Translations under genes and position numbers: made by a program
DNA from: a virus
DNA length: 27,329 nt
Virus record (IMG/VR): IMGVR_UViG_3300028743_000025
Coordinates: 1-27,329 of that record
Strand: one strand, 5' to 3'
Shown: piece after piece, positions 12,802-27,081 of the stretch
How positions within the stretch are numbered: the stretch's first letter is position 1
Layout of the letters: the number at the start of each line of letters is the position of its first letter
The notes under the pieces: generated by a model
What the model saw: the letters and a program-made list of their open reading frames with translations, nothing else
The model's database searches: none
What the model was told of the DNA's origin: nothing

Positions 12802-12866
12802 TTTGGGTTCTCCTTTTGCTGTGGGTAAATATATTTGTGTTGCAATATACTCTGTGTGTAGGCCAC

Positions 12867-12910
12867 AAAAAAAGACGCCGAGAGGTTCAGAGCCCTCTGA
12901 GGCGTCTTTT
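12867..12910 (-). terminator. Strong intrinsic terminator inside the late operon (leftward)
   Basis: The hairpin pairs AAGACGCC (12872-12879) with GGCGTCTT (12901-12908) and, inside it, AGAGG (12881-12885) with CCTCT (12894-12898). The loop is about eight bases. Reading leftward it is followed by seven T residues (12873 down to 12867), an ideal terminator; the rightward side has only four T residues. It lies after the Mu F-like gene and before the exported-protein gene, so it would stop or reduce transcription into the capsid and tail genes unless it is bypassed. Confidence 0.85.
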
Positions 12911-13006
12911 AATGCGCTTGCGTCGCTTGCCATCTGGCCGGATGTTGGGCGAACCTGATTTATTGTGTTACTCTATTATCACAAAGTGAGTTAAAAAACA
13001 ACACAT

Positions 13007-13849: not shown

Positions 13850-15291
13850 TCATCGGCCTTATCTGATGGCTTATTAGGCTCGAATCCAGGCAAGCCACCC
13901 ATTCCCATTTCCTGTTTTGGCTCCAGGCTATCATCGGCCTTCTCGATATCTTTATCAGTGATGTTTGACCACATACCAGTTTCGTCAGACATTTGGCGCA
14001 GCTCTTTCAAAGCTATCTGCTGGGATATGATACCGGCATTGAATGTGTCGTTGACTGCCGTCGTCTTTTTGCTGGCAAGTTCTGCCCGGCGCTCACTGGT
14101 AACAGTCTGGCATGGCTTGAAGGCAAAATCAAGATCGTCTGGTATCTCACCCCAGGTGGACAACGCAATCACGGGTGTGAGTTTGTCAAGCTGGGGGCGC
14201 AACTGGCTGTCCTGTTTCTCACCCAACATGTCGTAATAGTTTTGGAGATCGCTTTCACCGGAAGAGTTCAAGCCAGACGGCGCACGGCCAAACAACTTCG
14301 TACACGGTATTTCGGCGGCCCCGGACATGTCGAGCATAAAAGATTCGTATATGTCGTTGATGCCTGTGAACGAATACTGCTTAGTATCGAAGTCGTCGTC
14401 CTTGTCAAGCACCATCATGCCCATGTTGGACATGAGCCGGTTTTGCGCTGACAGAGTGTTGTAAAGGTTTTGTTGTGCCTTGGGGTTATTTGCGGCAAGC
14501 TGCTGGGCTAATGATCCCATTTTTAGCACACGTACGTTAGCAAGAAATATTAGACTGGCAATGTTCCACGAGGTGTTATCCCTCTTTTTGAGTTCATCGA
14601 AAACAATCTCGACCTCAGATGCCCCCCAATGTACTTCGGCTTGTCGCTCCCAAAAAGGGAGGTTACGGCCGATAAAGCGCAAGACTCGTGATGCATGTAC
14701 ATCATAGAAGTGGCCTGTCTCTGTCGTCACCCTATAGGATGCAGGGAGTCCAAAGTCCGGGCTATTGATATCCTCTATTTGCTCTGCGCTAGGGGTGATA
14801 CCACTCCACCTATCGAGTACAAGCAAACCGCAATAGCTTCCAGGCATCACTTGATCAAGGTCAAGCGGCTGGTCAAGCATATTCTCATGGCCCTTGATCA
14901 TCATGATCGCGCCCGCCCCACCATACAGCCGACCCCATTTCAGGGCCTCATTGATGGCGGCACGGGTCCGGGTAACGCGCTCCACCTTCTGGTATTTGTC
15001 TATCATTTCTGGGGATACTTGGCAGGTAAGTTCAATCCAGTTCTTGCACATATCATCAGGGATGGTGTCGATTACTTTGCGAATAATCCAATGGGACCGG
15101 TACAGCGAATTCATCAGGTTGTAATCGCGGGATAGGCGTGTCAGAGGATAATCGGTGCCCTCCATGATGTTGTTGGAGCCAAAGCCGATACGCGCCATAA
15201 GATTTTGGAATGAGTCCAGGGTTTGAGTATCAGCATCATTAGTTTGGATAGGCGCGGTAGTGACCGGTAGTTTTTTATTTTTACGGCTCAT
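13846..15291 (-). CDS. Portal protein (DUF1073)
   Basis: At 481 aa from the ATG at 15291 (GGAGG eight bases upstream, ATGA overlap with the terminase stop), this matches DUF1073 portal proteins. Typical segments are YPLTRLSRDYNLMNSLYRSHWIIRKVIDTIPDDM near residue 50-85, then ALKWGRLYGGAGAIMMIKG, the ASRVLRFIGRNLPFW strand, and, in the later part, EIPCTKLFGRAPSGLNSSGESDLQNYYDML. The dodecameric portal sits at one vertex, lets DNA enter and leave, and contacts the terminase and neck. The gene order TerL-portal-Mu F is canonical. A start 15 bases further upstream (15306) is possible but less well supported. Confidence 0.88.
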   Translation of the reverse strand: MSRKNKKLPVTTAPIQTNDADTQTLDSFQNLMARIGFGSNNIMEGTDYPLTRLSRDYNLMNSLYRSHWIIRKVIDTIPDDMCKNWIELTCQVSPEMIDKYQKVERVTRTRAAINEALKWGRLYGGAGAIMMIKGHENMLDQPLDLDQVMPGSYCGLLVLDRWSGITPSAEQIEDINSPDFGLPASYRVTTETGHFYDVHASRVLRFIGRNLPFWERQAEVHWGASEVEIVFDELKKRDNTSWNIASLIFLANVRVLKMGSLAQQLAANNPKAQQNLYNTLSAQNRLMSNMGMMVLDKDDDFDTKQYSFTGINDIYESFMLDMSGAAEIPCTKLFGRAPSGLNSSGESDLQNYYDMLGEKQDSQLRPQLDKLTPVIALSTWGEIPDDLDFAFKPCQTVTSERRAELASKKTTAVNDTFNAGIISQQIALKELRQMSDETGMWSNITDKDIEKADDSLEPKQEMGMGGLPGFEPNKPSDKADE

Positions 15292-16517
15292 ACCGCTAAC
15301 CTCCATTGTGGTATTTTAGTTTTGATACCATAGCGTAATGCATCGGGGCAATGGTCGTTTGATTTAATCGGCTTTTCTTCACCACGCAGGGCGGCCTTTT
15401 CGTCCCAAGCATAAGCTGCTGTTTCTCCAATAGTGTTTGTACACCTTTTATGTATTCTGATCAAGCCTCTTTTCATCATGACCGAGACCATGCGGATGCC
15501 GTCGAGGACTTCGTTATCTGCATCCTGTACTAAAAGGCCACGGGATCGAAGTTCCGCCGCAAAGGATGCTGCCGAAGGGTCAAGCACAATCGTGGCGTCT
15601 TCCTTAGGGCCTATAAACTCTATTAGGTCATCAGCATACTCACTATCGGTTTTTTGACGGCCCTCTTTTTTGCTGTCCCAGTAATATTCCCTATCCACCC
15701 AAACGCTTTCACCATCATCCAGCATATCGAGGAAGGGCATGGGATTAGTGGTCCCGTAATCAATAAGGATGTACCTGTCCACGTAGCCACTACGCAAGCC
15801 AATAGGTATTGTGTCTTCATCGTATAATAGATCATCAGACCAGCAATCTTTGTAAATTGCCCCTTCGGCTACTACCCATAGGCCTAGGATGAACCGCTGG
15901 TAATAAACACCTGCATATGCATTGCGGATGAAATGCTTGTATTCTTCGTCAAGAGCCGGATTGTCGTCAAGTTCAAAATGGATAACTTTAACCATCTTTG
16001 AAGCGAGCTTTTCAGGGTCGTTGATATATTCAGTGTAGAGGTAATGGTAGGGGGAATCAGGGTTAGTCGTTGCGTACAGCCTCGCCCCTGGGACGGACAT
16101 ACGGTTCAGAAGCTGTTTAAAAAAACGTTCTGGCATCAAGGAGAGCTCATCACAATATGCCCGTGCTATGGTCTTACCACGGATATATTTTTCAGATCCT
16201 TCATCCTTAGCGCCGATAACTTTGTATTCATCCCCAAACAAATCGAGCTCGCCTGATTGCCGGTTGTAGTGATAGTTGCGCGTGCCTACTACGTCGAAGA
16301 GGTCACGGAGGATATTATCGTAGATTGTGTCCTTTGATACGCCCGTGATAACCCCTAACCCCTGGGGGGCATCACCGCACATATTAATCAGCTTGGGGAT
16401 CATGGCAACCGTCTTACCAGACCGTACAGAGCCTTCCAAAATTGTAATACGGGAATCTTGACCTACAGGGGTGAGGATGAATTGGAGGGCTTTCTTGCCA
16501 AAGGGTTGGAGTATCAT
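15288..16517 (-). CDS. terL: Terminase large subunit
   Basis: The 409-aa protein is the packaging motor and nuclease. The ATPase half has Walker A GSVRSGKT at residues 29-36, Walker B IARAYCDEL at 117-125 with Asp123 and Glu124, and a coupling motif ATTNPDSP at 149-156. The nuclease half has the acidic clusters YILIDYGTTN (Asp253), VLDPSAAS (Asp313) and NDHCPDALRYG (Asp388, Asp392), as in the RNase H-like terminase nuclease. It uses ATP to pump DNA through the portal and cuts the concatemer. The stop overlaps the portal start as ATGA and the start overlaps the small-subunit stop, so the three are coupled. Confidence 0.92.
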   Translation of the reverse strand: MILQPFGKKALQFILTPVGQDSRITILEGSVRSGKTVAMIPKLINMCGDAPQGLGVITGVSKDTIYDNILRDLFDVVGTRNYHYNRQSGELDLFGDEYKVIGAKDEGSEKYIRGKTIARAYCDELSLMPERFFKQLLNRMSVPGARLYATTNPDSPYHYLYTEYINDPEKLASKMVKVIHFELDDNPALDEEYKHFIRNAYAGVYYQRFILGLWVVAEGAIYKDCWSDDLLYDEDTIPIGLRSGYVDRYILIDYGTTNPMPFLDMLDDGESVWVDREYYWDSKKEGRQKTDSEYADDLIEFIGPKEDATIVLDPSAASFAAELRSRGLLVQDADNEVLDGIRMVSVMMKRGLIRIHKRCTNTIGETAAYAWDEKAALRGEEKPIKSNDHCPDALRYGIKTKIPQWRLAV

Positions 16518-17008
16518 AAGCTATTCGCACCCTGCTTAATAATATCCTTGAGGGATTCAAGCTGGTCTTCTGCCCCTTTGTCCTTCACAATGATCGAAGC
16601 CTCTGGCCGATAGTCAGCAGGGAAACGATTGCATATCTGTAGCCGGTACGCTTGTGCGTTAAATTCCTTGCCACCCCATATCCCAGACATGCCCTGCGAC
16701 TCCCACCATGCAAGGGAAAGCTCGCGTGCGCGTTGCATGGCGTCTGAAAATTCAGTATGTTCCTTGCACCATTCGTCTAATGTTGACCGAACAACATCGA
16801 GTTCAGCCGCCATCATAGCCTTGCTGAACCCTTTTTTCCCACACTCGACAACGACTTCACAGAATGGTTCACGGTATACGGTAGGACGACCAACGGGATT
16901 ATTGGTTACTTCGGTAGGTTCTTCACCTGCTTTGACTCGTTCCCACCCAGGGAGAGAGCAGTTTACGGGTTTATTGGTAGGTTCTTTCTTTTTTTCGCCC
17001 TTTTTCAT
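16514..17008 (-). CDS. terS: Terminase small subunit-like DNA-recognition protein
   Basis: The 164-aa product has a charged start (MKKGEKKKEPTNK), the GRPTVYREPFCEVVVECG segment, and a helix-turn-helix-like stretch GFSKAMMAAELDVVRSTLDEWC (about 80-100), with a helical WWESQGMSGIWGGKEFNAQAY part after it. This plan, directly upstream of the terminase large subunit, is that of a small subunit which recognises the packaging site and loads the motor. The ribosome site before the ATG at 17008 is weak. A perfect TTATCCACA lies four bases upstream of the start codon. Confidence 0.78.
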   Translation of the reverse strand: MKKGEKKKEPTNKPVNCSLPGWERVKAGEEPTEVTNNPVGRPTVYREPFCEVVVECGKKGFSKAMMAAELDVVRSTLDEWCKEHTEFSDAMQRARELSLAWWESQGMSGIWGGKEFNAQAYRLQICNRFPADYRPEASIIVKDKGAEDQLESLKDIIKQGANSL

Positions 17009-17011
17009 AGG

Positions 17012-17114
17012 TTATCCACAGGTAAAAAGGTATTTATTCGGTTTGTTGCATATTATTGTAATCATAACCATAAAATGCCATGTTTATTGGGCGTGGATAA
17101 AAAAGTTATCAACA
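17012..17114. other. Cluster of DnaA-box-like sequences, possible origin
   Basis: TTATCCACA at 17012-17020 is a perfect DnaA box. A reverse-strand copy with one change (TTATCCACG) lies at 17100-17092 and TTATCAACA, also one change, at 17106-17114. The 70 bases between are A+T rich. Three boxes with an A+T-rich spacer resemble an origin or a DnaA-controlled promoter. They lie just upstream of the terminase genes. The evidence is visual only, so the call is tentative. Confidence 0.4.
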
Positions 17115-17285
17115 GCCTCTACACAAATCGCTTTGCCAGATATCTGGTATAATTTTATAGGGGCACGCGTCCAGTAACACGTCATATTTCCAGAATAACC
17201 CATCGTGAGGATGTATACCCACAACGACAGCGGGGAGCCCTTGATAAATCACTTTGTCTTCCGGCCCAAATCTATACTTTTCCAT
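17109..17285 (-). CDS. Small protein of unknown function, first ORF of the late leader
   Basis: A 58-codon frame runs from the ATG at 17285 to a TGA at 17109-17111. It reads MEKYRFGPEDKVIYQGLPAV, then VVGIHPHDGLFWKYDVLLD, and ends in a Cys-containing tail, CRGC. The GLPAVVVGIHPHDGLFWKYDV stretch looks like a small SH3-like or beta-barrel fold. The ribosome site is weak, and the frame is too short for many gene finders. It would be the first cistron of the leftward late transcript. I do not recognise the family. Confidence 0.5.
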   Translation of the reverse strand: MEKYRFGPEDKVIYQGLPAVVVGIHPHDGLFWKYDVLLDACPYKIIPDIWQSDLCRGC

Positions 17286-17402
17286 TTCAGGTTTTTCTTT
17301 CTATGCGGTTCTGTTGTTTTGCCCCTAGTCCATGGACACAGGACAACCCCTTTACAATAAATTCAAAAGTCAATATGTTTTTTGTCTCTTCATACCAGTT
17401 AA

Positions 17403-17428
17403 GGGCAGCTAGCACGTGCTAGCTGCCC
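17403..17428. repeat. Perfect 26-bp palindrome
   Basis: Each half is 13 bases, GGGCAGCTAGCAC, and the second half is its exact reverse complement with no loop. No T run follows on either strand, so a simple terminator is unlikely. It may be an operator, a packaging or resolution site, or a cruciform. It lies inside the 5' leader of the leftward late transcript. Confidence 0.85.
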
Positions 17429-17444
17429 ACCTATTTTGAGCTTG

Positions 17445-17513
17445 ACCGGGTTCTGTGCTATCCAGGCCCATTCGCTACGTACTGAGCGGCGGCGGGATAG
17501 TTGTGGACCCGGT
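17445..17513 (-). ncRNA. Predicted stem-loop at the start of the late transcript
   Basis: Three nested pairings are visible: ACCGGGT (17445-17451) with ACCCGGT (17507-17513), CTATCC (17458-17463) with GGATAG (17495-17500), and CGCT (17473-17476) with AGCG (17485-17488). The outer two stems are separated by a symmetric 6-base internal loop. The leftward transcript from the promoter at 17527-17554 should begin about seven bases before it. A structured RNA at the very start of a late transcript resembles, in position, an antitermination element. No folding energy was calculated. Confidence 0.4.
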
Positions 17514-17526
17514 AGAGGCCCGGCTG

Positions 17527-17554
17527 ATTATAGTTTACCTTACCACATTGTAAT
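17527..17554 (-). promoter_or_regulatory. Leftward promoter for the packaging/late region
   Basis: A perfect -10 (TATAAT, plus 17532 down to 17527) is placed 16 bases from ATTACA (17554 down to 17549), a 4-of-6 match to the -35 box. Transcription would start near 17520 and read into the hairpin, the palindrome, the 58-aa ORF and the terminase genes. Confidence 0.55.
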
Positions 17555-17592
17555 GGTGTTTGCAACTATTTTTACTTGGTTAATTATTTTTG

Positions 17593-17621
17593 TTGACTTA
17601 TATAATTGATGGCGGTATTAT
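17593..17621 (+). promoter_or_regulatory. Rightward promoter P1 for the tiny-gene cluster
   Basis: TTGACT (17593-17598) and TATTAT (17616-17621) are separated by exactly 17 bases. The -35 and -10 both match sigma-70 well (5 of 6). The spacer shares 12 of 17 bases with the spacer of the second rightward promoter at 18088. The first gene begins 37 bases after the -10. Confidence 0.75.
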
Positions 17622-17657
17622 TAAGTTAACGATGGGGAACGAAACAAGGAGGATATC

Positions 17658-17849
17658 ATGAAACTTACAAACGACGAACAACGCGGATACAACGACAGGC
17701 TGGCAGGCTTCTATGACAAATGGTTTAGGTACAACAGACAAGACGACGGAGCTGCTTATAACAGAGGTTGTGCCCGTGCTGTAGATAGTGGCAAATGCAA
17801 AGATTATTTCACCTTGATAGAATGTAATAACAGCGTCCTCAGGTCTTAA
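17658..17849 (+). CDS. Small hypothetical protein, first rightward early gene
   Basis: The 63-aa product begins MKLTNDEQRGYNDRLAGFYDKW and has the pattern GAAYNRGCARAVDSGKCKDYFTLIE, with four charged or aromatic clusters and three Cys. A strong AAGGAGG site lies six bases before the ATG. The role is unknown. Its position right behind a strong promoter suggests an early, highly expressed protein, possibly for host takeover. It is one of four tiny genes in a rightward cluster. Confidence 0.75.
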   Translation: MKLTNDEQRGYNDRLAGFYDKWFRYNRQDDGAAYNRGCARAVDSGKCKDYFTLIECNNSVLRS

Positions 17850-17895
17850 CAACAGCCGCCCCGCCCGTGGCATAGTAACGGGCAGAAAGGTGTTT

Positions 17896-18096
17896 ATGTA
17901 TAAAAAAGTTGAGCATAAAAAGAAAACAGGCCCGAAGCCATCCGAACGCTCTAAACGACGAATGTATTATATCAGAGTCAGCGAAGATTTTCACGCTAAT
18001 TTGCTGGAATTAAACAAAGATTTTGTCAGGACGGTACTCGAAACATATGCCACCAAAGAAAATAATGCAGCCTACCAAATAAAAATATTGACATAG
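17896..18096 (+). CDS. Small basic protein, possible ribbon-helix-helix regulator
   Basis: From the ATG at 17896 (AAAGG five bases upstream) the product is 66 aa; a GTG six bases earlier is possible. It has a very basic N-terminus (KKVEHKKKTGPKPSERSKRR), then RMYYIRVSEDFHANLLEL and NKDFVRTVLETYATKE, an order of strand, helix, helix that suits a ribbon-helix-helix DNA-binding protein. The basic tail would suit DNA contact. It may regulate the two neighbouring promoters. The call rests on pattern only, and the gene stops with TAG, which is rare in this window. Confidence 0.55.
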   Translation: MYKKVEHKKKTGPKPSERSKRRMYYIRVSEDFHANLLELNKDFVRTVLETYATKENNAAYQIKILT

Positions 18097-18116
18097 ATAA
18101 TTATCGGTGGTAAAGT
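18088..18116 (+). promoter_or_regulatory. Rightward promoter P2 with a palindromic spacer
   Basis: TTGACA (18088-18093) and TAAAGT (18111-18116) are 17 bases apart. The spacer contains the palindrome GATAATTATC (18096-18105) and shares 12 of 17 positions with the P1 spacer. It overlaps the last codons of the previous gene and drives the next two tiny genes. Confidence 0.65.
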
Positions 18117-18152
18117 CTAATTACAATGAAGGACAAACAAGGAGGCCACACC

Positions 18153-18317
18153 ATGAAACGTATAGAAAAAGCGGACAGTAAACATTTATATGAGGTGGAA
18201 ACGTCTGTAAGCGGGTATGTGGGCAAAATTGAGGTAGAAGCCGACACACGGGCAGAAGCCAATACGACAGCGGTGGCTTATGGATATGTTGTAAGATCAA
18301 TTAATATGGTTGGCTAA
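18153..18317 (+). CDS. Small hypothetical protein
   Basis: The 54-aa product starts at the ATG at 18153, eight bases after an AAGGAGG; an upstream in-frame ATG at 18126 lacks such a site. It reads MKRIEKADSKHLYEVETSVSG, then GKIEVEADTRAEANTTAVAYGY and ends VVRSINMVG. The GYVVRSINMVG ending is seen in short phage proteins of unknown function. It is beta-alpha in character. It follows promoter P2. Confidence 0.65.
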   Translation: MKRIEKADSKHLYEVETSVSGYVGKIEVEADTRAEANTTAVAYGYVVRSINMVG

Positions 18318-18356
18318 CAGCCGGTACCCCGGCAATCTAATGGAGGTGGAAAAACA

Positions 18357-18482
18357 ATGAAAAAACTCACTCGCAACCAATTGGCCAACAAAATAAACCT
18401 GCTGGTGACTAGCCGCCGTAAACCCATGCCGTGCCCTGTTTGCGGCAATGACCGTTGCTCAATTTTGGCACACCACGGCTAA
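18357..18482 (+). CDS. Tiny zinc-finger-like protein (41 aa)
   Basis: The 41-aa product is missed by a 60-codon cut-off. GGAGGTGG lies ahead of the ATG. It reads MKKLTRNQLANKINLL and then RKPMPCPVCGNDRCSILAHHG: the CPVCG...C...HH pattern is a likely zinc-binding site. The basic N-terminus suits nucleic-acid or protein contact. It is the last intact gene of the rightward cluster. Its function is unknown. Confidence 0.6.
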   Translation: MKKLTRNQLANKINLLVTSRRKPMPCPVCGNDRCSILAHHG

Positions 18483-18548
18483 CCCAACACCGGGCACGGT
18501 GCCCCACTATAAGGAGGGACTAATAACCCAACCACATATAACGAACAA

Positions 18549-18577
18549 AAAGGGGCTTTGCGGCCCCTTTCCTTTTT
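18549..18577. terminator. Bidirectional terminator between convergent early units
   Basis: AAAGGGGC (18549-18556) pairs with GCCCCTTT (18563-18570) around a 6-base loop. Rightward it is followed by CCTTTTT; leftward the T run is TTTTTG, so it ends transcripts from both sides. It lies between the rightward tiny genes and the leftward modification genes. Confidence 0.85.
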
Positions 18578-18664
18578 AAGAATGGTATCAACCCCGTGTA
18601 GAGGCTAACAGGCCGCTTCTCTGCCCTATATTTGTTTAGCAGGGTGTTGGTATTTACAAAATAC

Positions 18665-19537
18665 TCACCATAGCCACATCTGGCAGTCGGGCTGGTCCGT
18701 GTCGTTGACGTTTTCTTCTTCCATCCACCATGACCAGTATTCGTCTACTGACCCGTATTGCGTGTTGCTCCGAGGCAACCCGTCTTTACGGGGGATATCT
18801 CGCCATTTTACCAGCCAATCCAAAGCAGCTTTTTTCCACATTTTTTCGTAGCGCGGCCACCGGGCAAAATCTCGCTTTCTCCCCTTCGTTCCGCTCATGG
18901 GACACCCGATGCAACCTAAACGGTGATAGCCCTCATCGTAGAGACTGCAATACGTCATGCTGTTCCCGTAGATAAATTGCCACACATCATCGTCAGTCCA
19001 GTACAATATCGGAGACATTATTGGAGCCTTTTGTCCCGGTATTATTCTGGTTGGTTGCCAAAGCCCTTTCCTTCTCGCCGACTCTGCGGCTCTTACTCCA
19101 ACGGCTTTGAATAGACCATTACCGCCCTGCTCCTTGTAAATCGAACAGCACCACCGCATAACTCTAGTCGGCAACCCCTGATAATTATCAACCATGTGCC
19201 GCAATATATGTTTTTTAGGATTGTGCCAGATCACTTGCGGATACTCCTGTTTGATAAACCACACTAGTTCGGGCGGGTCGATGGTGACATTGGAGTAATT
19301 GAGCGTGTACTGCACTCCCGCCAGCCCAAACAGCTTCGCCATGACAATAGAGTCCTTTCCACCACTGAAGCAGACATAGTACCCATCCGGCGACAGTGCC
19401 AGCGCCTGTTTCTCAAACGTGCGGATAAGGTCAATTGCCATTTCAATTTTATCTTGCAATGGGGCACGCAGGGCGGCCTGGTACATGGCCTCCGTGTCGT
19501 CGTTCCCGTATAGGTCAACTATTTTATTTTCAACCAT
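18665..19537 (-). CDS. PAPS reductase-like/adenine nucleotide alpha hydrolase with Fe-S-type cysteines
   Basis: I choose the ATG at 19537 (GGGAGGG just ahead), giving 290 aa. The PP-loop SGGKDS lies at residues 58-63, the NYSNVTIDPPELV segment follows, and GVRAAESARRKG at about 147-158 is typical of PAPS reductases. The pair Cys130-Cys131 (MRWCCS) and Cys209-x-x-Cys212 (GCIGCP) keeps the CC...CxxC spacing that binds a 4Fe-4S cluster in APS reductases and DndC. In a phage it is more likely to act on nucleic acid or on a nucleotide sulfur step than on host sulfate. The gene overlaps the previous one by eight bases. The exact reaction is unknown. Confidence 0.8.
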   Translation of the reverse strand: MVENKIVDLYGNDDTEAMYQAALRAPLQDKIEMAIDLIRTFEKQALALSPDGYYVCFSGGKDSIVMAKLFGLAGVQYTLNYSNVTIDPPELVWFIKQEYPQVIWHNPKKHILRHMVDNYQGLPTRVMRWCCSIYKEQGGNGLFKAVGVRAAESARRKGLWQPTRIIPGQKAPIMSPILYWTDDDVWQFIYGNSMTYCSLYDEGYHRLGCIGCPMSGTKGRKRDFARWPRYEKMWKKAALDWLVKWRDIPRKDGLPRSNTQYGSVDEYWSWWMEEENVNDTDQPDCQMWLW

Positions 19538-19745
19538 GCCGCCCTCCCACCATTTTGACATCTTTCTTTTTGGCGCTGTAATCGTCAAATAGTTTTAGCG
19601 AATTGACCAAATAACTACCATCTTCTAACTTCACGATCTGCGGCACACGGTCGTTTGACATGAGGTTTTTTACGTGGTTAGCACCCGTCCAAACTGGCAC
19701 GTCCCAGTCTTTCCATTGGCCGTTGTGGTAGTATTTGCCGGTCAT
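19530..19745 (-). CDS. Small hypothetical protein in the modification cluster
   Basis: The 71-aa product begins MTGKYYHNGQWKDWDVPVW and has NHVKNLMSNDRVPQIVKLEDGSYLVNS, a beta-rich pattern, with a basic end (KKKDVKMVGGRHG). I do not recognise it. Its ATG overlaps the previous stop as ATGA and its end overlaps the next start, so the three genes are coupled. It could be a partner of the PAPS-reductase-like enzyme, but this is only a location argument. Confidence 0.6.
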   Translation of the reverse strand: MTGKYYHNGQWKDWDVPVWTGANHVKNLMSNDRVPQIVKLEDGSYLVNSLKLFDDYSAKKKDVKMVGGRHG

Positions 19746-19909
19746 ATCTTAGACCACTGATTTTTGAGATAGAAGGTGCCAGATTCAGGCAGCCATAATT
19801 CCCCGTTGTTAAGCTCTCTGCCTTTTACGATAAAAGGTTTTTTGCCCTGCATCGTGACTCGTGCTGTGACAGCCACCGATTTCCGCATTAACATCTGCGC
19901 TCTATCCAT
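19742..19909 (-). CDS. Small hypothetical protein (55 aa)
   Basis: This 55-codon frame starts at the ATG at 19909, directly after an excellent AAGGAGGGGG. It reads MDRAQMLMRKSVAVTARV, then GKKPFIVKGRELNNGELWLPE, and ends in TFYLKNQWSKI. The GRELNNGELWLPESGTFYLK stretch resembles a beta-sheet protein. It is below a 60-codon cut-off but is well supported by the ribosome site and the 4-nt overlap with the following gene. The role is unknown. Confidence 0.6.
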   Translation of the reverse strand: MDRAQMLMRKSVAVTARVTMQGKKPFIVKGRELNNGELWLPESGTFYLKNQWSKI

Positions 19910-19966
19910 ACCCCCTCCTTAGTTTAGTTGTTTGACTGCCTCGATAAATAATAGACCATGACGCGT

Positions 19967-22267
19967 TTATTTTATGCCTAAAGAAAGTTGTTTTGCAGTG
20001 GTAGAATCTGCCTCTTTACAATTGTTCACGGCTTGTTTCCAATAAGCCGTTTTAAGTTCAATACCAAAAGATTTCCGGCCCATTTGTAGGGGTACAACTA
20101 GCTCAGTACCAATCCCCGCAAAGGGAGTAAAAACAGTATCGCCGGGATTCGTCCAGAGGTCAACTGCCCTTTCAACTACTTGAATTTGCAGTGGGCAAAT
20201 ATGGCGCTCATCCGCATCTTCACGGACGCTAAATCTCTGTAAAGTATCGGATGGGTTTATGTCCTGGCTAACATGCAAAAAACCATCTCCATAATCCGCT
20301 GGTTGGATGTTTTCCGCCCCATTAAATGCACTGACTTTCTTTTCTTCCTGCCCGATAACTGCCCATACCGGAGACGCATATCGCTGCCATACCGCAACGG
20401 GGAACGTATCGTTTGTGTGAGTAACAGGCTCGGTGTTGTCCCCTGGTTTTCGCATAACAACCAGATAATCAGGAATGCCCTGGCGGTTCATGCACGAATC
20501 TTTTTTGATCTGTTTATGGAGAAGACCAAGCGCCTTAGTCCTTTGCATGGCAGTTACAGGATCTTTCCAAATGCAAACCTCTGAATGGAATATCCACCCA
20601 TTATCTGTAAATACTCGTATCAGTTCCCCCCTGAAATCTCTGATCCCGATCACCCCATCGCGTTCCTTGCTCGTTGGCAGATTCATACAATGAAAAGCCA
20701 ATAAACGACCGGGCTTGGTAATGCGGTAGAGTTCAGGGACGAGAAACCGGAAATGGTCTGCAAACTCCTTATCGTTCTTTACGTTACCCATGTCTCGATC
20801 ACTGTTTGAGTAGGTATAAAGCGACGCAAACGGCGGGGAAAATATTGAGAAATGCATAGAGTTATCGGGAATCCGTTTAATGATCTCGCACGAATCCCCA
20901 TTCCAAAGAGTATAATTTTCCGTCTCTACTGATTCTTCAACGTAAACCGACTTGTCTGCCGACGCCCCACGGATATTCTTAGTCTCAATTGACTTCATGT
21001 TTTCAACCATATTTTCTGCCATTGACATAGCATCCGCCTCTTTTCTTTCAATATTTCTGACAACCGCGCCCTCTGTTTCAGCAGTGATTACGTGAACTTT
21101 TACCGCCTCTTTTTGCCCGAACCTCCAACACCGACGTACTGCCTGGTAGAACTGTTCATAAGAATCAGACAACCCGACAAAAGCCATGTTGTGGCAGTTT
21201 TGAAGATTTAACCCGTAGCCAAACATACTCGCTTTACTAACTAACCGGGATATGGTCCCATCCTGGAATCCGATCACTGACTTTTCTTTGTGTTCGATGG
21301 AGTCTGCCCCCTTGACTTCAACAGCCCCATCAATAGCCGCTTTAAGTTGAGCACTCTCTTCATTGAGATTACACCATATTAACCACTGCTCGTCTGGTTT
21401 CTCTGCCACTATCCGTGCGCACTCTGCTACCCTATCCACAATAGTGGATTTGCGCTCATGCTGTCGTTCTTGGAGAGTGAGCGCTTCAACTGGGAAAAGA
21501 AACCCATCCGGAGCTTGATCGACTTTGACTGTATGCTGTTCAATGGTCATTTCAGGAAGAGTGAATAACCCATCGTCATATCCCAAATCAGATGGCTTGC
21601 GGATGTTAACAGCCCATGAACATATCCACCGCCAAAAGTCGTTTTTTGCATGGCCTTTCAACCGCCACTTGGCGGTATCCCCTCCGTCGTGGACAAAAAA
21701 CATGGCAAGCATTTCAGTACGGGACATAACACCCAAAAACTCAGAATGGTTGCCAAGTTCCATATAATCGTTCGGGGCGGGTGTAGCGGTACATGCCAAA
21801 CGAAAAGGGGTGTTTTGGAATGAATCAACAATCTGATTGCGGAACTTGCCCGAATAAGATTTTAGGATAGAACTTTCATCCAAGACAATCCCTGTAAAAT
21901 AAGATGGATCAAAATGGTCAAGCATCTCGTAGTTAGTGATGGATATACCTGGTTTAACCTGATCTTGGTCACGGCAATATTTTATTTCAATATCAAGATT
22001 GTTTTTTGCCAACATTACAGTTTGAGGGGCCACAGCAAGTGGTGCCAGTATTAAAACGTTACCGGGTACATGTTTTGCCCACTCTGATTGCATTCCTGTT
22101 TTATAAAGACCGCAATCGGCAAATATCGCCGCCCGACCGCGTTTTAATGCCCATCGCGTAATATCTCTCTGGAAATCGTAGAGAGATTTATTTAATTCAG
22201 GTATTACTGTTAGCCCTGTTGGGATATCCACAACAGCTTTATTTTTTAGAAATTCATAGTATTCCAT
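19967..22267 (-). CDS. SNF2-type helicase fused to a DNA methyltransferase
   Basis: The 766-aa product is counted from the ATG at 22267; a TTG nine bases upstream is possible. The first half is an SNF2-like ATPase: a Walker A variant DCGLYKTG (51-58), DESS (130-133) in place of DEAH, CTATPAPND (159-167) and RRCWRFGQ (378-385) as motif VI. From about residue 450 is an amino-methyltransferase of beta order: WNGDSCEII, then SPPF (477-480) as the catalytic motif IV, and at the end FTPFAGIGTEL (713-723) as the SAM-binding motif I. It probably moves on DNA and methylates adenine (N6) or cytosine (N4). No nuclease domain was seen, so it is not an obvious restriction enzyme. Confidence 0.85.
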   Translation of the reverse strand: MEYYEFLKNKAVVDIPTGLTVIPELNKSLYDFQRDITRWALKRGRAAIFADCGLYKTGMQSEWAKHVPGNVLILAPLAVAPQTVMLAKNNLDIEIKYCRDQDQVKPGISITNYEMLDHFDPSYFTGIVLDESSILKSYSGKFRNQIVDSFQNTPFRLACTATPAPNDYMELGNHSEFLGVMSRTEMLAMFFVHDGGDTAKWRLKGHAKNDFWRWICSWAVNIRKPSDLGYDDGLFTLPEMTIEQHTVKVDQAPDGFLFPVEALTLQERQHERKSTIVDRVAECARIVAEKPDEQWLIWCNLNEESAQLKAAIDGAVEVKGADSIEHKEKSVIGFQDGTISRLVSKASMFGYGLNLQNCHNMAFVGLSDSYEQFYQAVRRCWRFGQKEAVKVHVITAETEGAVVRNIERKEADAMSMAENMVENMKSIETKNIRGASADKSVYVEESVETENYTLWNGDSCEIIKRIPDNSMHFSIFSPPFASLYTYSNSDRDMGNVKNDKEFADHFRFLVPELYRITKPGRLLAFHCMNLPTSKERDGVIGIRDFRGELIRVFTDNGWIFHSEVCIWKDPVTAMQRTKALGLLHKQIKKDSCMNRQGIPDYLVVMRKPGDNTEPVTHTNDTFPVAVWQRYASPVWAVIGQEEKKVSAFNGAENIQPADYGDGFLHVSQDINPSDTLQRFSVREDADERHICPLQIQVVERAVDLWTNPGDTVFTPFAGIGTELVVPLQMGRKSFGIELKTAYWKQAVNNCKEADSTTAKQLSLGIK

Positions 22268-22296
22268 AAATGTCAACCCCCCGTTTGTTTAACTGC

Positions 22297-22809
22297 CTAT
22301 AACGGTAAATCTGATGTTGATTGTTCTTGGAAATGTGCAGGGTTCCCCTGAATTTTGCGTATTTCATTCATCTGGCAATCACCCCACCCTAAACCAGGAT
22401 AAGTTTTGTCCATTATCCCTAAACCTTCTACCAGTTTGTCCCGACCCACGCTGTAGTCAACGGTCATGGCAATAATAGCCCAAGCCCGTTTGACGTATTG
22501 ATCGTGATTGCCTCCGAATTGTTGCTGAAACTCTCGGTCAACCACATGCCTGGGTTTAGGTTCGTCAGGAGAATTAGCAGAGTTCAACTTTTTCTGTTCC
22601 TCCTGAGCCATTGCCACAATACGGCTGAGAGGTGGGAAAGTAGCAGGGGAAATCTCCGCGTATACGCGCTTTGTAATCTGCACCATCACTGAATCCTGAG
22701 TGTCTTTGAGGTCATCAGTGATAGCGTTGATGGCATCAATAGACCAAGCCCGGTTAAAATGAGTTTTCCCTATGTGATCAAGCCCCTCTTTTAGCGTGTT
22801 GTATTGCAT
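22297..22809 (-). CDS. Hypothetical protein coupled to the replication gene
   Basis: The 170-aa product begins MQYNTLKEGLDHIGKTHFNRAW and has a helical first half (DAINAITDDLKDT), a linker EEQKKLNSANSPDEPKPRH, and a helical second half ending in DYSVGRDKLVEGLGIMDK. The start overlaps the upstream gene by 19 bases and has GGAG five bases ahead. A replication-linked job such as helicase loading would fit its position, but no ATPase motif is visible. The stop is TAG. Confidence 0.6.
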   Translation of the reverse strand: MQYNTLKEGLDHIGKTHFNRAWSIDAINAITDDLKDTQDSVMVQITKRVYAEISPATFPPLSRIVAMAQEEQKKLNSANSPDEPKPRHVVDREFQQQFGGNHDQYVKRAWAIIAMTVDYSVGRDKLVEGLGIMDKTYPGLGWGDCQMNEIRKIQGNPAHFQEQSTSDLPL

Positions 22810-23579
22810 TTTCGCTCCAGAGTATCTTTTTTAAGAAGGTCGAAATAGCTGCCCGGTTCATAATCCTTGGTAATGTCAAACTCACAGCTTTCAATTTTTT
22901 TCTTGCCGTTACCCATCAGCACCCCCTTGACGTAGGCAACGGAATTCTTCCCCTGCTCCGCCGAAATTCTGAATGCCTCGACAATCGCGTCTCGTGGGTA
23001 ATGCTGGCATAGTTCGCTTGCCAGTTGGTTGCAGCCTGGGGGCATTGCGGTTTTGAAGTTGTCGGTGAAGAGGAATCGGAAGTCATTGATCGTCATCATC
23101 GCCTTTTGCTCTAGTGGTGCTAGGTAAGAAGGTGATGATGTAGGTTTTTCTTTATCTACTTCTACTTCTGTATTCTCCATCTCCTTCTTGGGGCCGACAC
23201 TCTCCTTTTTTTGTCCTGATTTTTTAGAGTATTCATCTCGGTATTTCAATATGTTAGGTATGGAGATAGTTAAAACATCCTTCATAGATAAATCATAGAT
23301 AGTCGATACATTAGGCGAACATTGTGCATAGATAAGCGATAGATTGCTCATACATTCGAACAAGATACGTGCTTTTTTGAGATGGTATACTCCGGTTAAT
23401 CTCATCCAATATGACATGGGATAAGAGACGCTGCACTTGTCTCCGTCCTTGCCAATTTGGTTCGCAACCGCCTCGACAATCAGCCACCAGAAACCATAAC
23501 CCTCAGCCCCATGGGATGCCAACAACGCGGCTAATTTTTCGTCAATATGCGAATCGGTCAAATGCTTAAACCATTTCAA
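22791..23579 (-). CDS. DUF4373 replication initiation protein (Lin1244-like)
   Basis: The 262-aa product starts MKWFKHLTDSHIDEKLAALLASHGAEGYGFWWLIVEAVANQIG, which is typical of the DUF4373 N-terminal domain of phage replication proteins. A Lys/Glu-rich linker (about 120-155) separates it from a C-terminal helical domain (NDFRFLFTDNFKTAMPPGCN to VAYVKGVLMGNG), similar to the DnaD/replisome-organiser plan. The protein likely binds the phage origin and recruits the host helicase. Its end overlaps the next gene by 19 bases. The ribosome site is weak (AGGCGGTG). Confidence 0.78.
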   Translation of the reverse strand: MKWFKHLTDSHIDEKLAALLASHGAEGYGFWWLIVEAVANQIGKDGDKCSVSYPMSYWMRLTGVYHLKKARILFECMSNLSLIYAQCSPNVSTIYDLSMKDVLTISIPNILKYRDEYSKKSGQKKESVGPKKEMENTEVEVDKEKPTSSPSYLAPLEQKAMMTINDFRFLFTDNFKTAMPPGCNQLASELCQHYPRDAIVEAFRISAEQGKNSVAYVKGVLMGNGKKKIESCEFDITKDYEPGSYFDLLKKDTLERKCNTTR

Positions 23580-23593
23580 ATTACACCGCCTTT

Positions 23594-23707
23594 TTAGGCC
23601 CGCAGTTCATCCAACAACTCAGAAGCCAGATCAATCGCTGCCTGCTGGACTTCATTACCCGACGCATGTACAATCAATGCAAGGGCTGTTTTCAGCCGCC
23701 TAGACAG
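23594..23707 (-). CDS. Candidate small ORF downstream of the ParB-like gene
   Basis: After the TAA of the ParB-like gene the same frame stays open for another 38 codons, ending at 23594. From a CTG at 23707 it reads LSRRLKTALALIVHASGNEV and then QQAAIDLASELLDELRA, a clearly amphipathic helix pair. There is no ATG and no good ribosome site. It is either a tiny gene with a rare start, or a tail of the ParB-like protein that is lost through, or reached by reading through, the stop. Confidence is low. Confidence 0.35.
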   Translation of the reverse strand: MSRRLKTALALIVHASGNEVQQAAIDLASELLDELRA

Positions 23708-23710
23708 TGT

Positions 23711-24394
23711 TTACCAATCAGTATGGGGGCGGCTCGGCTTGACATGCTTGGAGGTGGCCTTAATCTTCCCATGATCTTCGGCAACTTTCACAGCATCACG
23801 CAAAGTTTTGCCAGCTAACAGCGATCCTTCTTGCCGGACGGTATTTACCGCCAACGTTGCGGACACTTGCCCCTGCTCAACCATTTGGACGACATCAGCG
23901 GGTGCTTCTAGAAGAGCAAGGGCATTCGTAATTGTAGTAGTGGAGACACCCCGGCGCTGGGCTATTTCTTGAGCCGTCCATCCGAATGTTGTAAGGCGTT
24001 TAATGGCTTTTGCTGTTTCGAGAGGTTTAAGGGGAAGGCCATCGTTTGAATTGAGAAGGTCAAGCGTGCGCTCTTCTTCGTTTTGGGTGTTTGCAATAGC
24101 AAGGATACCCTTAATAGGCGCTCCTTCTTCTTTTGCTAGTACGAATGCCCTGCGACGGCAATAACCCGCTACAACGTAAATTTCGCCGTTTTCCTGGCAT
24201 ATCGTGATCGGGGGAAATGCGGTTGTTCCTCCGGCGTGGATAGCATCCGCCATTTTACGGATATGCGCTTGAGTTTCGGGGCTATCCATATCGCGGACGT
24301 TATAACCTGGGCGCTCTTTGATTGCTTCGGGCTGAAAAAGAAAACTGTCGCCACCACGCCCCACGCATGCCTCATGTTCTTTCAACCTTGCCAT
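23711..24394 (-). CDS. ParB-like DNA-binding protein
   Basis: From the ATG at 24394 with AAGGAGG before it, the product is 227 aa. It has the ParB N-terminal pattern: PGYNVRDMD, PPITICQENGEIYVVAG and GYCRRRAFVLAKEEG (77-91, the GxxRRxA box), then ALLE near a helix-turn-helix at about 139-162 (TAQEIAQRRGVSTTTITNAL). A basic tail follows. In phages such proteins act in partition, transcription control or as DNA nicking enzymes. The gene sits behind a long structured leader. No ParA neighbour is visible, so partition is not proven. Confidence 0.8.
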   Translation of the reverse strand: MARLKEHEACVGRGGDSFLFQPEAIKERPGYNVRDMDSPETQAHIRKMADAIHAGGTTAFPPITICQENGEIYVVAGYCRRRAFVLAKEEGAPIKGILAIANTQNEEERTLDLLNSNDGLPLKPLETAKAIKRLTTFGWTAQEIAQRRGVSTTTITNALALLEAPADVVQMVEQGQVSATLAVNTVRQEGSLLAGKTLRDAVKVAEDHGKIKATSKHVKPSRPHTDW

Positions 24395-24436
24395 TGTCGG
24401 CCTCCTTAAAATGGGTGTTTGCCGCTGAAACAATAA

Positions 24437-24528
24437 GCCCCTAAGGGAATCTGCACATTCCGCCTAGGGGCCATTGTCCTTCGCTGGCAATGCCAGTAAA
24501 AGGATTATCTGCATAGCCGGGTGCAGCC
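24437..24528 (-). promoter_or_regulatory. Structured leader with three hairpins upstream of the ParB-like gene
   Basis: Leftward from the promoter, the leader first holds CTGCA/TGCAG (24511-24528), then the near-perfect palindrome CTGGCAATGCCAG (24484-24496), then a long hairpin with GCCCCTA (24437-24443) paired to TAGGGGC (24465-24471) and GGAAT/ATTCC inside it (24446-24450, 24457-24461). No T run follows the last, so it is not a standard terminator. The order suggests control at RNA level, or binding by the ParB-like protein. Confidence 0.45.
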
Positions 24529-24550
24529 GACTTTTGCTATTCAATTTTGC

Positions 24551-24652
24551 CTATACTATACGCCATCCTCGTCTTTTTTGCAAGCATTCCGATATTTCGA
24601 CGCCGTCTGTTCCAAAATGCCCATATTTTTTGCCAATAAGTCCGAAATCCAT
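24551..24652 (-). CDS. Possible 33-aa protein upstream of the promoter
   Basis: The frame starts at the ATG at 24652 after AAGGATAGGAC and reads MDFGLIGKKYGHFGTDGVE, then ISECLQKRRGWRIV, ending in TAG. It directly follows the zinc-ribbon gene. The promoter for the ParB-like gene lies inside its end. It is short and unrecognised, so it is listed as a candidate only. Confidence 0.3.
   Translation of the reverse strand: MDFGLIGKKYGHFGTDGVEISECLQKRRGWRIV
24555..24583 (-). promoter_or_regulatory. Promoter of the ParB-like gene
   Basis: Leftward TTGCAA (24583-24578) and TATAGT (24560-24555) are 17 bases apart, with a 5-of-6 -10 and a 4-of-6 -35. Transcription would begin near 24548 and read the structured leader. 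Confidence 0.6.
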
Positions 24653-24677
24653 GTCCTATCCTTTCCGGGGGTGTTGG

Positions 24678-24908
24678 TTAATCGCAGGTCTTGTGCCAGA
24701 TGATTCCGTCATCATCTCTGAAATGCTTTTGTCCTTCGAGGATTGGCAGACCACAACTTTCACAATCCCCAATTACTGCTTTACCGTCGATCGTCATAAC
24801 CTCAGCGTTTGGATATGCTCGTTGGAATGCCCCTATCGCTTTATCTAAATCGGTTTCTTTTGTGATGTGGCACACCTCTTCTTCTGGGATTACGCCAGTT
24901 ATTTTCAT
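24678..24908 (-). CDS. Small zinc-ribbon-like protein
   Basis: The 76-aa product starts MKITGVIPEEEVCHITKET and ends with IGDCESCGLPILEGQKHFRDDDGIIWHKTC: CESC plus HKTC gives two Cys pairs or a Cys-Cys-His-Cys set that would bind zinc. The middle is helical (LDKAIGAFQRAYPNAEV). A GGGAGAGAAG ribosome site lies before the ATG. It is probably a small regulator or adaptor of the early region. The role is not known. Confidence 0.65.
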   Translation of the reverse strand: MKITGVIPEEEVCHITKETDLDKAIGAFQRAYPNAEVMTIDGKAVIGDCESCGLPILEGQKHFRDDDGIIWHKTCD

Positions 24909-24939
24909 CTCTTCTCTCCCTTCGGCCCTATGGGCGGGG

Positions 24940-25101
24940 TTAATCGTTTTCTATAAAACATTGACCAATACTTTCGTCGCTGCTCATGGCCAGTTTATGT
25001 AGTTGTTCCGGTGTGAGGTCGATATGCACGCTTCGGTAGTTGCAGGGGTCTTGAAGATGGATAAATGGTGATAAGTCGCGTATTATTACAGTCAGTTTCA
25101 T
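24940..25101 (-). CDS. Small hypothetical protein (53 aa)
   Basis: This 53-codon frame starts at the ATG at 25101 with an AAAGGAG seven bases ahead. It reads MKLTVIIRDLSPFIHLQD, then YRSVHIDLTPEQLHKLAMSS and ends IGQCFIEND. The LTPEQLHKL segment is a helix cap typical of small DNA-binding or adaptor proteins. It is too short for a 60-codon cut-off but has good support. It lies between two early genes, both on the same strand. Confidence 0.6.
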   Translation of the reverse strand: MKLTVIIRDLSPFIHLQDPCNYRSVHIDLTPEQLHKLAMSSDESIGQCFIEND

Positions 25102-25105
25102 TTTT

Positions 25106-25399
25106 TCACTCCTTTATGGCGCTGATGATGGCTATCTGGGCGTCGTTTACCCCGTGCAGCCATGCGTCCTGGCTGTTGGTTAGTGCCCCTTCCGAGTTGG
25201 CCCCTGATGGGTTAATTACGGCATCCTGTACGGCGTTTATGCACCGCGCCCGTTCTCTCTGCTCCCCGGCGGCTAGACCGGCGTGGAAACCGTCTTTAAC
25301 TACCCTTGTTACCGAGTCGTGAATAAATGGTATTGGAGTCCCATCCGTGGCGATAGCCCACCACTCTTCAAACATCTGCTCCGGAGCCTTACCACTCAT
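25106..25399 (-). CDS. Small hypothetical protein, phage accessory
   Basis: The 97-aa product begins MSGKAPEQMFEEWWAIATDG and has FIHDSVTRVVKDGFHAGLAAGEQRERARCINAV, a helical pattern common in small phage accessory proteins of the early region. The end is helical too. The ATG overlaps the previous stop as ATGA. No catalytic motif is seen. The function is unknown. Confidence 0.6.
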   Translation of the reverse strand: MSGKAPEQMFEEWWAIATDGTPIPFIHDSVTRVVKDGFHAGLAAGEQRERARCINAVQDAVINPSGANSEGALTNSQDAWLHGVNDAQIAIISAIKE

Positions 25400-25722
25400 A
25401 AATCCTCCAGGTGGTACTTAGCTTTGATATCAGCTATAGCGCATAGGTATGCAGAAGGCCCATCAAACCACGATCTATTATCTATTAAAATTATGATCTC
25501 CCGCGCCGTTTCTTGCCGGGTCGTCTCTATAACTTTGTCGTGGTCGGTAAGACAATCAACGCATATTTCTTTGTCGGTGAGGACCTTCAGCGCGTCCCGT
25601 TCCTTGGTAAGCTCTGCCATCTGGACGCGGAGACAGTCAATCTCATCATTCAGCCCATTAATAATTGATGTATTTTCATAGTCAGCGTTGCAGAGTTGTG
25701 TATTTGTACGTTTGTCGCTCAT
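25396..25722 (-). CDS. Small coiled-coil protein
   Basis: The 108-aa product has a long helix (IINGLNDEIDCLRVQMAELTKERDALKVLTDKE) that looks like a coiled coil, then CVDCLTDHDKVIETTRQETAREIII, with a CxxC pair that could bind metal. The end is short and charged. It is coupled to both neighbours by ATGA overlaps. It may form dimers or bind a partner. Its role is unknown. Confidence 0.6.
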   Translation of the reverse strand: MSDKRTNTQLCNADYENTSIINGLNDEIDCLRVQMAELTKERDALKVLTDKEICVDCLTDHDKVIETTRQETAREIIILIDNRSWFDGPSAYLCAIADIKAKYHLEDL

Positions 25723-26195
25723 CCCTGCACCTCCTGTAAAACAGCACGAGCAATGCTTGAATCTTCCCAGTCCTTTCCGTGGCTCAATTTTTCCAGCACC
25801 TCTCTATACCGGGCGTTCTCGACCTCCACCGCTGCATTGTCGTGGTAGTACGTCCGACCAGCGGGCCGGGTTTTGAGAGCGGAGTTCTCGGTTTGTAGTC
25901 CAGCACGTATCTCGTTCGCAGTGAGAAGCGCGTCGTTTAGCCACCGGATATGCCAGTTCTCGTGCATGATGCAGTCCTGAGCGCTACAGGAAGCCATTTT
26001 ATGCTGGTATTCGCAGACCTCGCACATATCGTCATAGCAGCATTGATTTTCCTCTTCTTCTGCCAATTCAAAAGCCCCAAGAAGATGGTCAATGCACCAT
26101 TCGGCCTCTTCGATAATTTTAGGAGTGCCCAGCAAATCCCACGTTTTTCTGGATTTCCACAATGCCACTCTTTCCTTTAACTCGTTGTCACTCAT
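25719..26195 (-). CDS. Cys-rich and coiled-coil hypothetical protein
   Basis: The 158-aa product has an N-terminal helical part (DNELKERVALWKSRKTW), a Cys/Glu-rich middle with CCYDDMCEVCEYQHKMASCSAQDC, which is a possible zinc site, and a helical C-terminus (LTANEIRAGLQTENSALK). The ATG overlaps the preceding reading frame by eight bases. I do not recognise the family. It belongs to a row of small coupled early genes. Confidence 0.6.
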   Translation of the reverse strand: MSDNELKERVALWKSRKTWDLLGTPKIIEEAEWCIDHLLGAFELAEEEENQCCYDDMCEVCEYQHKMASCSAQDCIMHENWHIRWLNDALLTANEIRAGLQTENSALKTRPAGRTYYHDNAAVEVENARYREVLEKLSHGKDWEDSSIARAVLQEVQG

Positions 26196-26334
26196 GGGGG
26201 GTCTCCACTCGTTTGATGGTCTTCTCCAACTTTGCTATAGCACCCAGCAGCGTTTTAGACTGTTTCCACTATTGATGTTTGGCCGCAAGCAATAGAGATT
26301 TGCATTCTTTGACTGTCAATTTTTCAAAAGCCAT
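26188..26334 (-). pseudogene. Small gene interrupted by an in-frame amber codon
   Basis: From the ATG at 26334 (GGAGGAG five bases ahead) the frame reads MAFEKLTVKECKSLLLAAKHQ, then TAG at 26271-26269, then WKQSKTLLGAIAKLEKTIKR and VETPHE to a TGA that overlaps the next start. Both halves look like one helical protein, and the second half is conserved in composition. It may have been broken by a point mutation, or the amber is read through. TAG is used as a normal stop by at least four other genes here, so a change of genetic code is not supported. Confidence in the protein frame is fair; its state is open. Confidence 0.5.
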
Positions 26335-26371
26335 ATCTCCTCCATCCTGTTAATTGTTAGCGGGGGCCGGT

Positions 26372-26986: not shown

Positions 26987-27081
26987 TGCATATCCTCCCA
27001 TGACAGGGCTTTCCACGCCGCCCCGCTGTTAATTTGGTGGCAAATCTGACACCATTTTGTTGACGCCAGCAATATGGTCAC
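26983..27081 (-). CDS. Possible 32-aa CxxC protein
   Basis: A GTG at 27081 overlaps the TGA of the upstream HNH-like gene, with AAAGGA ahead. The frame reads MTILLASTKWCQICHQINSG and AAWKALSWEDMQ, ending in a TGA that overlaps the next ATG. The CQIC pair could bind metal. Being coupled on both sides makes it plausible, although 32 aa is very short. Confidence 0.45.
   Translation of the reverse strand: MTILLASTKWCQICHQINSGAAWKALSWEDMQ

Follow-up and report, generated by a model that had tools for sequence, protein, structure and literature searches.

Genes for proteins resembling 3'-phosphoadenosine 5'-phosphosulfate (PAPS) reductase are carried by phages, plasmids, type IV-B loci of clustered regularly interspaced short palindromic repeats (CRISPR) and bacteriophage exclusion (BREX) systems, and roles beyond sulfur metabolism have been suggested for them (PMC11437467, PMC10848311). 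Surveys count the phage genes, annotated as 'cysH', among the sulfate-assimilation genes and take them as a sign of virus-driven sulfate assimilation (PMC10914622), and they have also been listed as 'not validated' (PMC12713726). In Sinorhizobium prophages, SspD/DndC-like and methyltransferase genes occurring together were mentioned in passing (PMC12429752). Given these earlier suggestions, a role of PAPS-reductase-like genes in DNA modification is not a new idea; what is new in this analysis is a motif census and neighbourhood statistics for one family of them, the PP-loop family. The gene from which we started lies on the minus strand of IMG/VR virus record IMGVR_UViG_3300028743_000025, whose positions 1-27,329 make up the stretch of DNA analysed (27,329 nucleotides, hereafter the window), in a run of genes that also holds a SNF2-type helicase-methyltransferase fusion and two tiny open reading frames (ORFs). 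It encodes a predicted PP-loop iron-sulfur enzyme whose substrate is the interesting point of the locus, the two larger genes being otherwise of known kinds and most likely independent of each other.

The PP-loop protein and the described systems

Matches to Pfam PAPS_reduct (PF01507; 3.4e-17, 63.4 bits against a cut-off of 22.5) and to phrog_424 (8.3e-34) place the protein in the PAPS reductase superfamily. Among its relatives, taken from viral and bacterial contigs and dereplicated to 148 loci for the census of motifs, it falls in a near-subfamily of 10 members that forms a single clade (support 100) and conserves a DCQxxLW-like tail. The gene and its motifs are:

18665-19537, minus strand: predicted PAPS-reductase-superfamily PP-loop Fe-S protein (phrog_424), 290 amino acids from ATG 19537
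19349-19366, minus strand: SGGKDS PP-loop of the ATP pyrophosphatase type (SGGKD[ST] in 142/148 family members)
19145-19153, minus strand: WCC, with C147 and C148, which presumably provide the first two of four [4Fe-4S] ligands (both invariant across an alignment of 60 sequences)
18902-18916, minus strand: GCIGC (CxxC), second presumed cluster-ligand pair (C226 and C229, invariant in the 60 sequences)
18668-18688, minus strand: C-terminal DCQMWLW tail (tail cysteine in 10/10 of the near-subfamily and 21/138 others)

The longest frame of the gene opens at TTG 19588 (span 18665-19588), and residue numbers such as S75, K78, C147 and, for the tail cysteine, C302 are those of this frame. The true start is nevertheless likely to be ATG 19537, which we prefer because it comes with a Shine-Dalgarno sequence (gggagggcgg), overlaps the stop of the 71-amino-acid ORF by 8 nucleotides (nt) and lies about where relatives start. 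Besides the four cysteines, S75, G77, K78, D79 and S80 are invariant in the alignment, and the census adds to the loop counts the CC motif in all 148 loci, GCxxC in 147 and an ECGxH tail in none. CysH of Escherichia coli, used as a yardstick, has SSFGIQ at the loop position, is without CC/CxxC and ends in the ECGLH tail. The AlphaFold2 model of the window protein (predicted local distance difference test 89, predicted template modelling score 0.85) has as its nearest solved folds the adenosine 5'-phosphosulfate (APS) reductases (Z 15-16), the ATP sulfurylase CysD and the PAPS domain of flavin adenine dinucleotide (FAD) synthase, followed by the sulfurtransferase folds LarE, TtuA and NcsA (Z about 11 vs 16 for the APS reductases). 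From the motifs and the modelled fold, the protein looks built for ATP binding and a [4Fe-4S] cluster. More than one copy of the PP-loop gene was found in 7/155 loci, and one virus record (L004, 3-857 and 9830-10855) holds two diverged copies about 9 kb apart.

With assimilatory APS reductase (CysH; PDB 2goy, 7lhr, 4bwv) the window protein shares the fold, the CC...CxxC ligands and the WT..VW and L.D.GY motifs, but it differs in its ATP-type SGGKDS loop, in an extra C-terminal region and in the lack of an ECGxH tail. Set against the features of classical (P)APS reductases, it thus has the APS-type CC...CxxC and neither ECG(I/L)H nor a degenerate PP-loop, and its best NCBIfam matches, the PRK13795 and PRK08557 models, reach 24-39 bits against reductase cut-offs of 154-254. 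The viral 'cysH' products of phrog_424 in MetMV (AZF89934), NatCom_17901 (XTK82663) and phiRgPS_6 (gp45) have the same SGGKDS, CC and CxxC and the same early-region setting at 31-44% identity, but are without the C-terminal DCQxxLW cysteine that marks the window subfamily.

The first-pass annotation had likened the cysteines to those 'in APS reductases and DndC'. The APS-reductase pattern holds, but DndC identity was rejected, as the window protein has no match to TIGR03183 at E 0.01 and no PADLOC DndC match; distant relatives (L011, L013) score 19-25 bits with TIGR03183 against a cut-off of 290. SspD was not matched by the window protein among the models searched either, and its highest-ranking PADLOC match (6e-17) is to BrxP, which is the PAPS-reductase-like component of type 4 BREX. 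A PP-loop with a cysteine-rich site is indeed common to the window protein and to BrxP, SspD and DndC of the DNA phosphorothioation systems, but the companion genes of these systems were not found: PADLOC detected no BrxC/SspC, SspB/DUF4007, PglZ, DndD or other Dnd/Ssp protein among the early-gene proteins scanned. A cysteine desulfurase (Aminotran_5) was absent from the 46.8 kb genome of the virus in a search that detected its positive controls, and DndE gave no match in a search that had no working positive control. The IbrA/IbrB prophage pair (PAPS-reductase-like plus ParB-like) has a counterpart in the ParB-like gene upstream in the same gene run, but five genes separate it from the PP-loop gene. 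This pairing was dropped, ParB_N occurring in just 6/50 family records and being absent from this genome by that model.

The helicase-methyltransferase fusion

The second large gene of the locus is a fusion with the following features:

19967-22267, minus strand: SNF2-type helicase / beta-order N4/N6 amino-methyltransferase fusion (phrog_16, phrog_67)
22097-22111, minus strand: helicase Walker A GLYKT in place of GLGKT (in 0/77 homologues)
20828-20842, minus strand: methyltransferase motif IV FSPPF (SPPF in 74/77 viral homologues)
20105-20125, minus strand: S-adenosylmethionine-binding motif I PFAGIGT, which comes after motif IV (beta order)

The start codon is ATG 22267, TTG 22276 being possible too. 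The protein, METHYLTRANSFERASE, matches phrog_16 (DNA helicase) at 1e-73 across residues 6-761 and also phrog_67 (DNA methyltransferase), with Pfam matches to N6_N4_Mtase (7.7e-14) and Helicase_C (1e-6). Helicase motifs II, III and VI (LDES, TATP, QxxRRxxRxGQ) and the methyltransferase motifs SPPF and FAGIGT are present, and since a single chain unites SNF2/SF2 helicase motifs with those of an N4/N6 methyltransferase, the protein belongs to the family, with an altered Walker A. Relatives, fused or as two adjacent genes, occur in 324/50,697 phage records (nearest 43-55% identity); the fused proteins of Synechococcus phage S-CBS3 and Methanosarcinales phage vir525 and the split gp65/gp66 of mycobacteriophage Ramsey match over the full length with the same motif order, but have GLGKT where the window fusion has GLYKT. 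Among 77 full-length viral homologues the Walker A is GLGKT in 62 and GLGKS in 4 (GLGK[TS] 66/77). Because GLYKT is unmatched in these homologues and identical in both records of this virus, the helicase motor may be impaired, and loss of the fusion's motor function is possible on this sequence evidence.

By default, a helicase-methyltransferase fusion gene is read as coding for an orphan anti-restriction methylase. The methylation half of what the first-pass annotation proposed, that the phage protects its DNA by methylation plus a second, possibly sulfur-linked modification, is ordinary and plausible, given the number of phage records with the gene in fused or split form. Its statement that each family is known also agrees with the matches, phrog_16/phrog_67 and phrog_424 being known phage families. 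A literature search for papers on phage helicase-methyltransferase fusions found none.

Genomic neighbourhood of the family

In the 148 family loci, gene positions ±1-2 around the PP-loop gene were compared with positions ±4-12, the controls being these offsets inside the same loci and other genes taken as anchors. Methyltransferases filled 33/566 of the near positions and 27/1939 of the far ones (odds ratio (OR) 4.4, p 3.5e-8). This pooled figure includes one cluster without a Pfam match (c23, 6 loci), and both C5 methyltransferases alone (17/566 vs 11/1939; OR 5.4, p 1.4e-5) and N6/N4 methyltransferases alone (13/566 vs 13/1939; OR 3.5, p 0.003) stay significant. SNF2 proteins (10/566 vs 19/1939; OR 1.8, p 0.12) have no significant peak at the PP-loop gene, and in the same offset test DnaB-like and DnaC-like genes have none beside it. 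On the family tree, 24 changes are required to account for the 28 linked loci and 11 for the 11 SNF2-linked ones, so that the linkage was repeatedly formed, not retained. The link between the PP-loop family and DNA methyltransferases is a loose, recurrent association, scattered over the tree. Genes for DNA methyltransferases, helicases and replication proteins, and not cys genes, are the neighbours found most often beside the family, and PF01555 methylases are found in 21/50 whole family records. In phage NatCom_17901 (L012 6754-11071) the PP-loop gene is flanked by two DNA methyltransferase genes and overlaps the first, and MetMV is another striking single case of this linkage. The first methyltransferase gene of NatCom_17901 is an apparent ParB-like/methylase fusion. 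Three protein clusters without a Pfam match were likewise enriched beside the PP-loop gene (L098 9159-9839, L101 1890-2339, L105 8724-9611).

The partnership of helicase-methyltransferase and PP-loop enzyme that the first-pass annotation put forward fits this class-wide enrichment, but the pair itself is not kept among close relatives of either enzyme. Ten other family loci do have a SNF2-methyltransferase, fused or split, no more than 5.3 kb from the PP-loop gene, and in four of them it is next door (L114 at 13 bp, L164 at 102 bp, L158 at 121 bp and L172 at 150 bp). The ten-member near-subfamily has no common neighbour gene, however, and the SNF2 fusion is adjacent in 1/10, that of the window virus; in one other member (L019) a long SNF2-methyltransferase lies 4.8 kb off, and in another (L023) a C5-like methyltransferase is next but one. 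The reverse test covered 80 loci (0.93 Mb) around the closest relatives of the fusion and turned up two distant PAPS-reductase relatives there, but no close relative of the PP-loop protein. A conserved SNF2-methyltransferase/PP-loop operon was rejected, the neighbourhood tests being negative from both sides.

Possible functions

The gene layout, the motifs, the predicted fold and the loose, recurrent linkage to methyltransferases are established by these comparisons. The explanation that we favour, tentatively and at somewhat short of an even chance, is that of two independently acquired early accessory genes, an orphan anti-restriction methylase and an ATP-dependent Fe-S adenylating/sulfur-transfer enzyme. 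The helicase part of the fusion would presumably translocate on DNA or open it, and the amino-methyltransferase part would mark adenine-N6 or cytosine-N4; judging from the family, such methyl marks would shield the phage DNA against host restriction. The PP-loop enzyme would most likely adenylate a nucleotide or nucleic acid at an oxygen and afterwards help to swap in sulfur, a related reductive reaction being the alternative step, with sulfur and electrons supplied by host systems, since a desulfurase is absent from the phage genome. An adenylating enzyme is suggested by the ATP-type loop unlike that of E. coli CysH, by the missing ECGxH tail throughout the census and by the confident fold model. 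Both enzymes would act independently, as the near-subfamily without a shared partner and the 80 fusion loci without a close PP-loop relative suggest, and their shared site would show that accessory genes for DNA modification have settled time and again in one part of phage genomes, and would not point to a fixed machine of two enzymes. As for the sulfur-linked second mark, its chemistry is consistent with the ATP-type loop, the four cysteines and the fold, but its DNA substrate found no such support, with no desulfurase detected in the genome and no Dnd/Ssp protein among the early proteins scanned. It is improbable, though worth stating, that phage 'cysH' products with SGGKDS and CC...CxxC have no part in sulfate assimilation and are stand-alone ATP-dependent sulfur modifiers of phage DNA or nucleotides, placed beside orphan methyltransferases and serving anti-restriction.

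Several points weigh against the explanation that we favour. The gene calls were crude longest-ORF calls, and the methyltransferase rates at other anchors (SSB-like, that is, single-stranded DNA-binding protein-like, 0/80; DnaC-like 2/62; DnaB-like 3/56; two other clusters 1/62 and 1/39) make the excess at the PP-loop gene a modest one, the SSB comparison alone being significant by itself; the names of these and further control clusters were assigned by eye, and a single DnaB-like query run as a control found one locus. In known enzymes, the four-cysteine cluster of the APS-reductase type offers no open sulfur-carrying site, unlike that of TtuA and NcsA. All activities, as well as the substrate and reaction of the PP-loop enzyme and the independence of action, are what we infer from genes and models. 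Finally, archaeal APS/PAPS reductases that have been characterised (M. jannaschii type) are members of this superfamily too, and an ATP-type loop may be common to them and the window protein.

This last point leads to the strongest alternative, possible though unlikely, by which the PP-loop gene is an ordinary auxiliary metabolic gene whose product, a sulfonucleotide reductase, converts APS or PAPS to sulfite for cysteine synthesis in the infected cell. Phage 'cysH' genes have so far been annotated in this sense (e.g., PMC10914622), the reading agrees with the Pfam and PHROG names, with the best NCBIfam matches and with the closest solved folds, APS reductases that have matching CC...CxxC ligands, and APS/PAPS reductase activity has been reported for a separate archaeal group of the superfamily with a 4Fe-4S site (PMC6286981; also PMC10322725). 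The SGGKDS loop, degenerate in E. coli CysH, the reductase-model scores far below their cut-offs and the usual neighbours, DNA methyltransferase, helicase and replication genes in place of cys genes, argue against it, as does the absence of ECGxH; the tail cysteine present in all ten members of the near-subfamily could, however, replace the ECGxH cysteine, which keeps the reductase alternative alive. For this branch, the ATP-type loop in 142/148, the catalytic tail in 0/148 and the methyltransferase enrichment question the sulfate-assimilation reading. Should the PP-loop enzyme act on DNA, a single gene would suffice for sulfur modification, with no Dnd/Ssp partners, and an auxiliary metabolic gene that is among those reported most often from phages would be reclassified; if it does not, the survey annotation gains its first real check.

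A coordinated two-step module, in which both enzymes act on the same phage DNA, leave methyl as well as sulfur-linked marks and perhaps use the tiny proteins as adaptors, is quite improbable. The single coupled transcription unit, the ten other loci with a nearby SNF2-methyltransferase, four of them adjacent, and the class-wide methyltransferase enrichment are in its favour, but SNF2 proteins by themselves have no significant peak, the pair is not kept within the near-subfamily, the fusion overwhelmingly occurs without a PP-loop gene and the tiny ORFs have no IMG/VR homologues beyond this virus. That the PP-loop enzyme is instead a tRNA or small-molecule thiolase, modifying a host or phage tRNA or a cofactor with no DNA role, is very improbable: the tRNA thiolases TtuA and NcsA, like the sulfurtransferase LarE, are among the proteins of related fold, but they rank below the APS reductases, whose ligand pattern the enzyme has. 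Least probable is DNA backbone phosphorothioation of the Dnd/Ssp/type-4-BREX kind with a host cysteine desulfurase, for which the BrxP match and the ability of host IscS to replace DndA (PMC10853773) speak, and against which stand the missing DndC and SspD matches, the companions not found among the proteins scanned and a DndC cluster described as three cysteines plus a separate dyad (PMC10853773).

Genome form and the remaining genes of the cluster

The same virus is present in a longer record, IMGVR_UViG_3300029989_000043 (46,827 bases), which holds the window in permuted order: window positions 16576-27329 are its start and 1-16721 its end, with an overlap of about 146 bases. From the permuted order of the two records, the genome is circular or terminally redundant, of about 46.7 kb. 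On the minus strand, the gene run reads ParB-like protein, replication-initiator-like protein, 170-amino-acid ORF, SNF2-methyltransferase, 55-amino-acid ORF, 71-amino-acid ORF and PP-loop protein, followed by a terminator-like hairpin:

23711-24433, minus strand: ParB-like protein, encoded farther upstream in this run (phrog_1033 1.4e-54; HTH_ParB 1.4e-12)
22791-23579, minus strand: replication-initiation-like protein (phrog_2562 replication initiation protein 6e-7; DnaB_2 and Lin1244_N below cut-off)
22297-22809, minus strand: 170-amino-acid upstream ORF of the same cluster, without a significant Pfam/PHROG family match
19742-19909, minus strand: 55-amino-acid orphan ORF with a strong Shine-Dalgarno sequence (aaggaggggg)
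19530-19745, minus strand: 71-amino-acid orphan ORF, overlapping both neighbours
18547-18572, minus strand: candidate terminator-like hairpin at the cluster end, a pattern match only (10 pairs, then a T-run)

The gaps along the cluster (-19, 29, 57, -4 and -8 nt) support one coupled transcription unit, and the operon of fusion, two tiny ORFs and PP-loop gene described in the first-pass annotation is confirmed by the ORF positions, the motifs and this spacing. These genes are best explained as the 3' end of an early/replication gene cluster of a tailed phage, the reading as a whole being one that we would put a little below even. Neither tiny ORF has a match in PHROG, Pfam or PADLOC, and in IMG/VR neither matches anything beyond this virus, the 71-amino-acid ORF matching its longer record. 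NinB, YqaJ and ERF genes lie in the 46.8 kb record outside the window. Downstream of the hairpin there is 1.4 kb until the next gene, followed by terminase genes, and within this interval (17286-18660) three short ORFs lie on the plus strand, along with a strong hairpin at 17403-17428.

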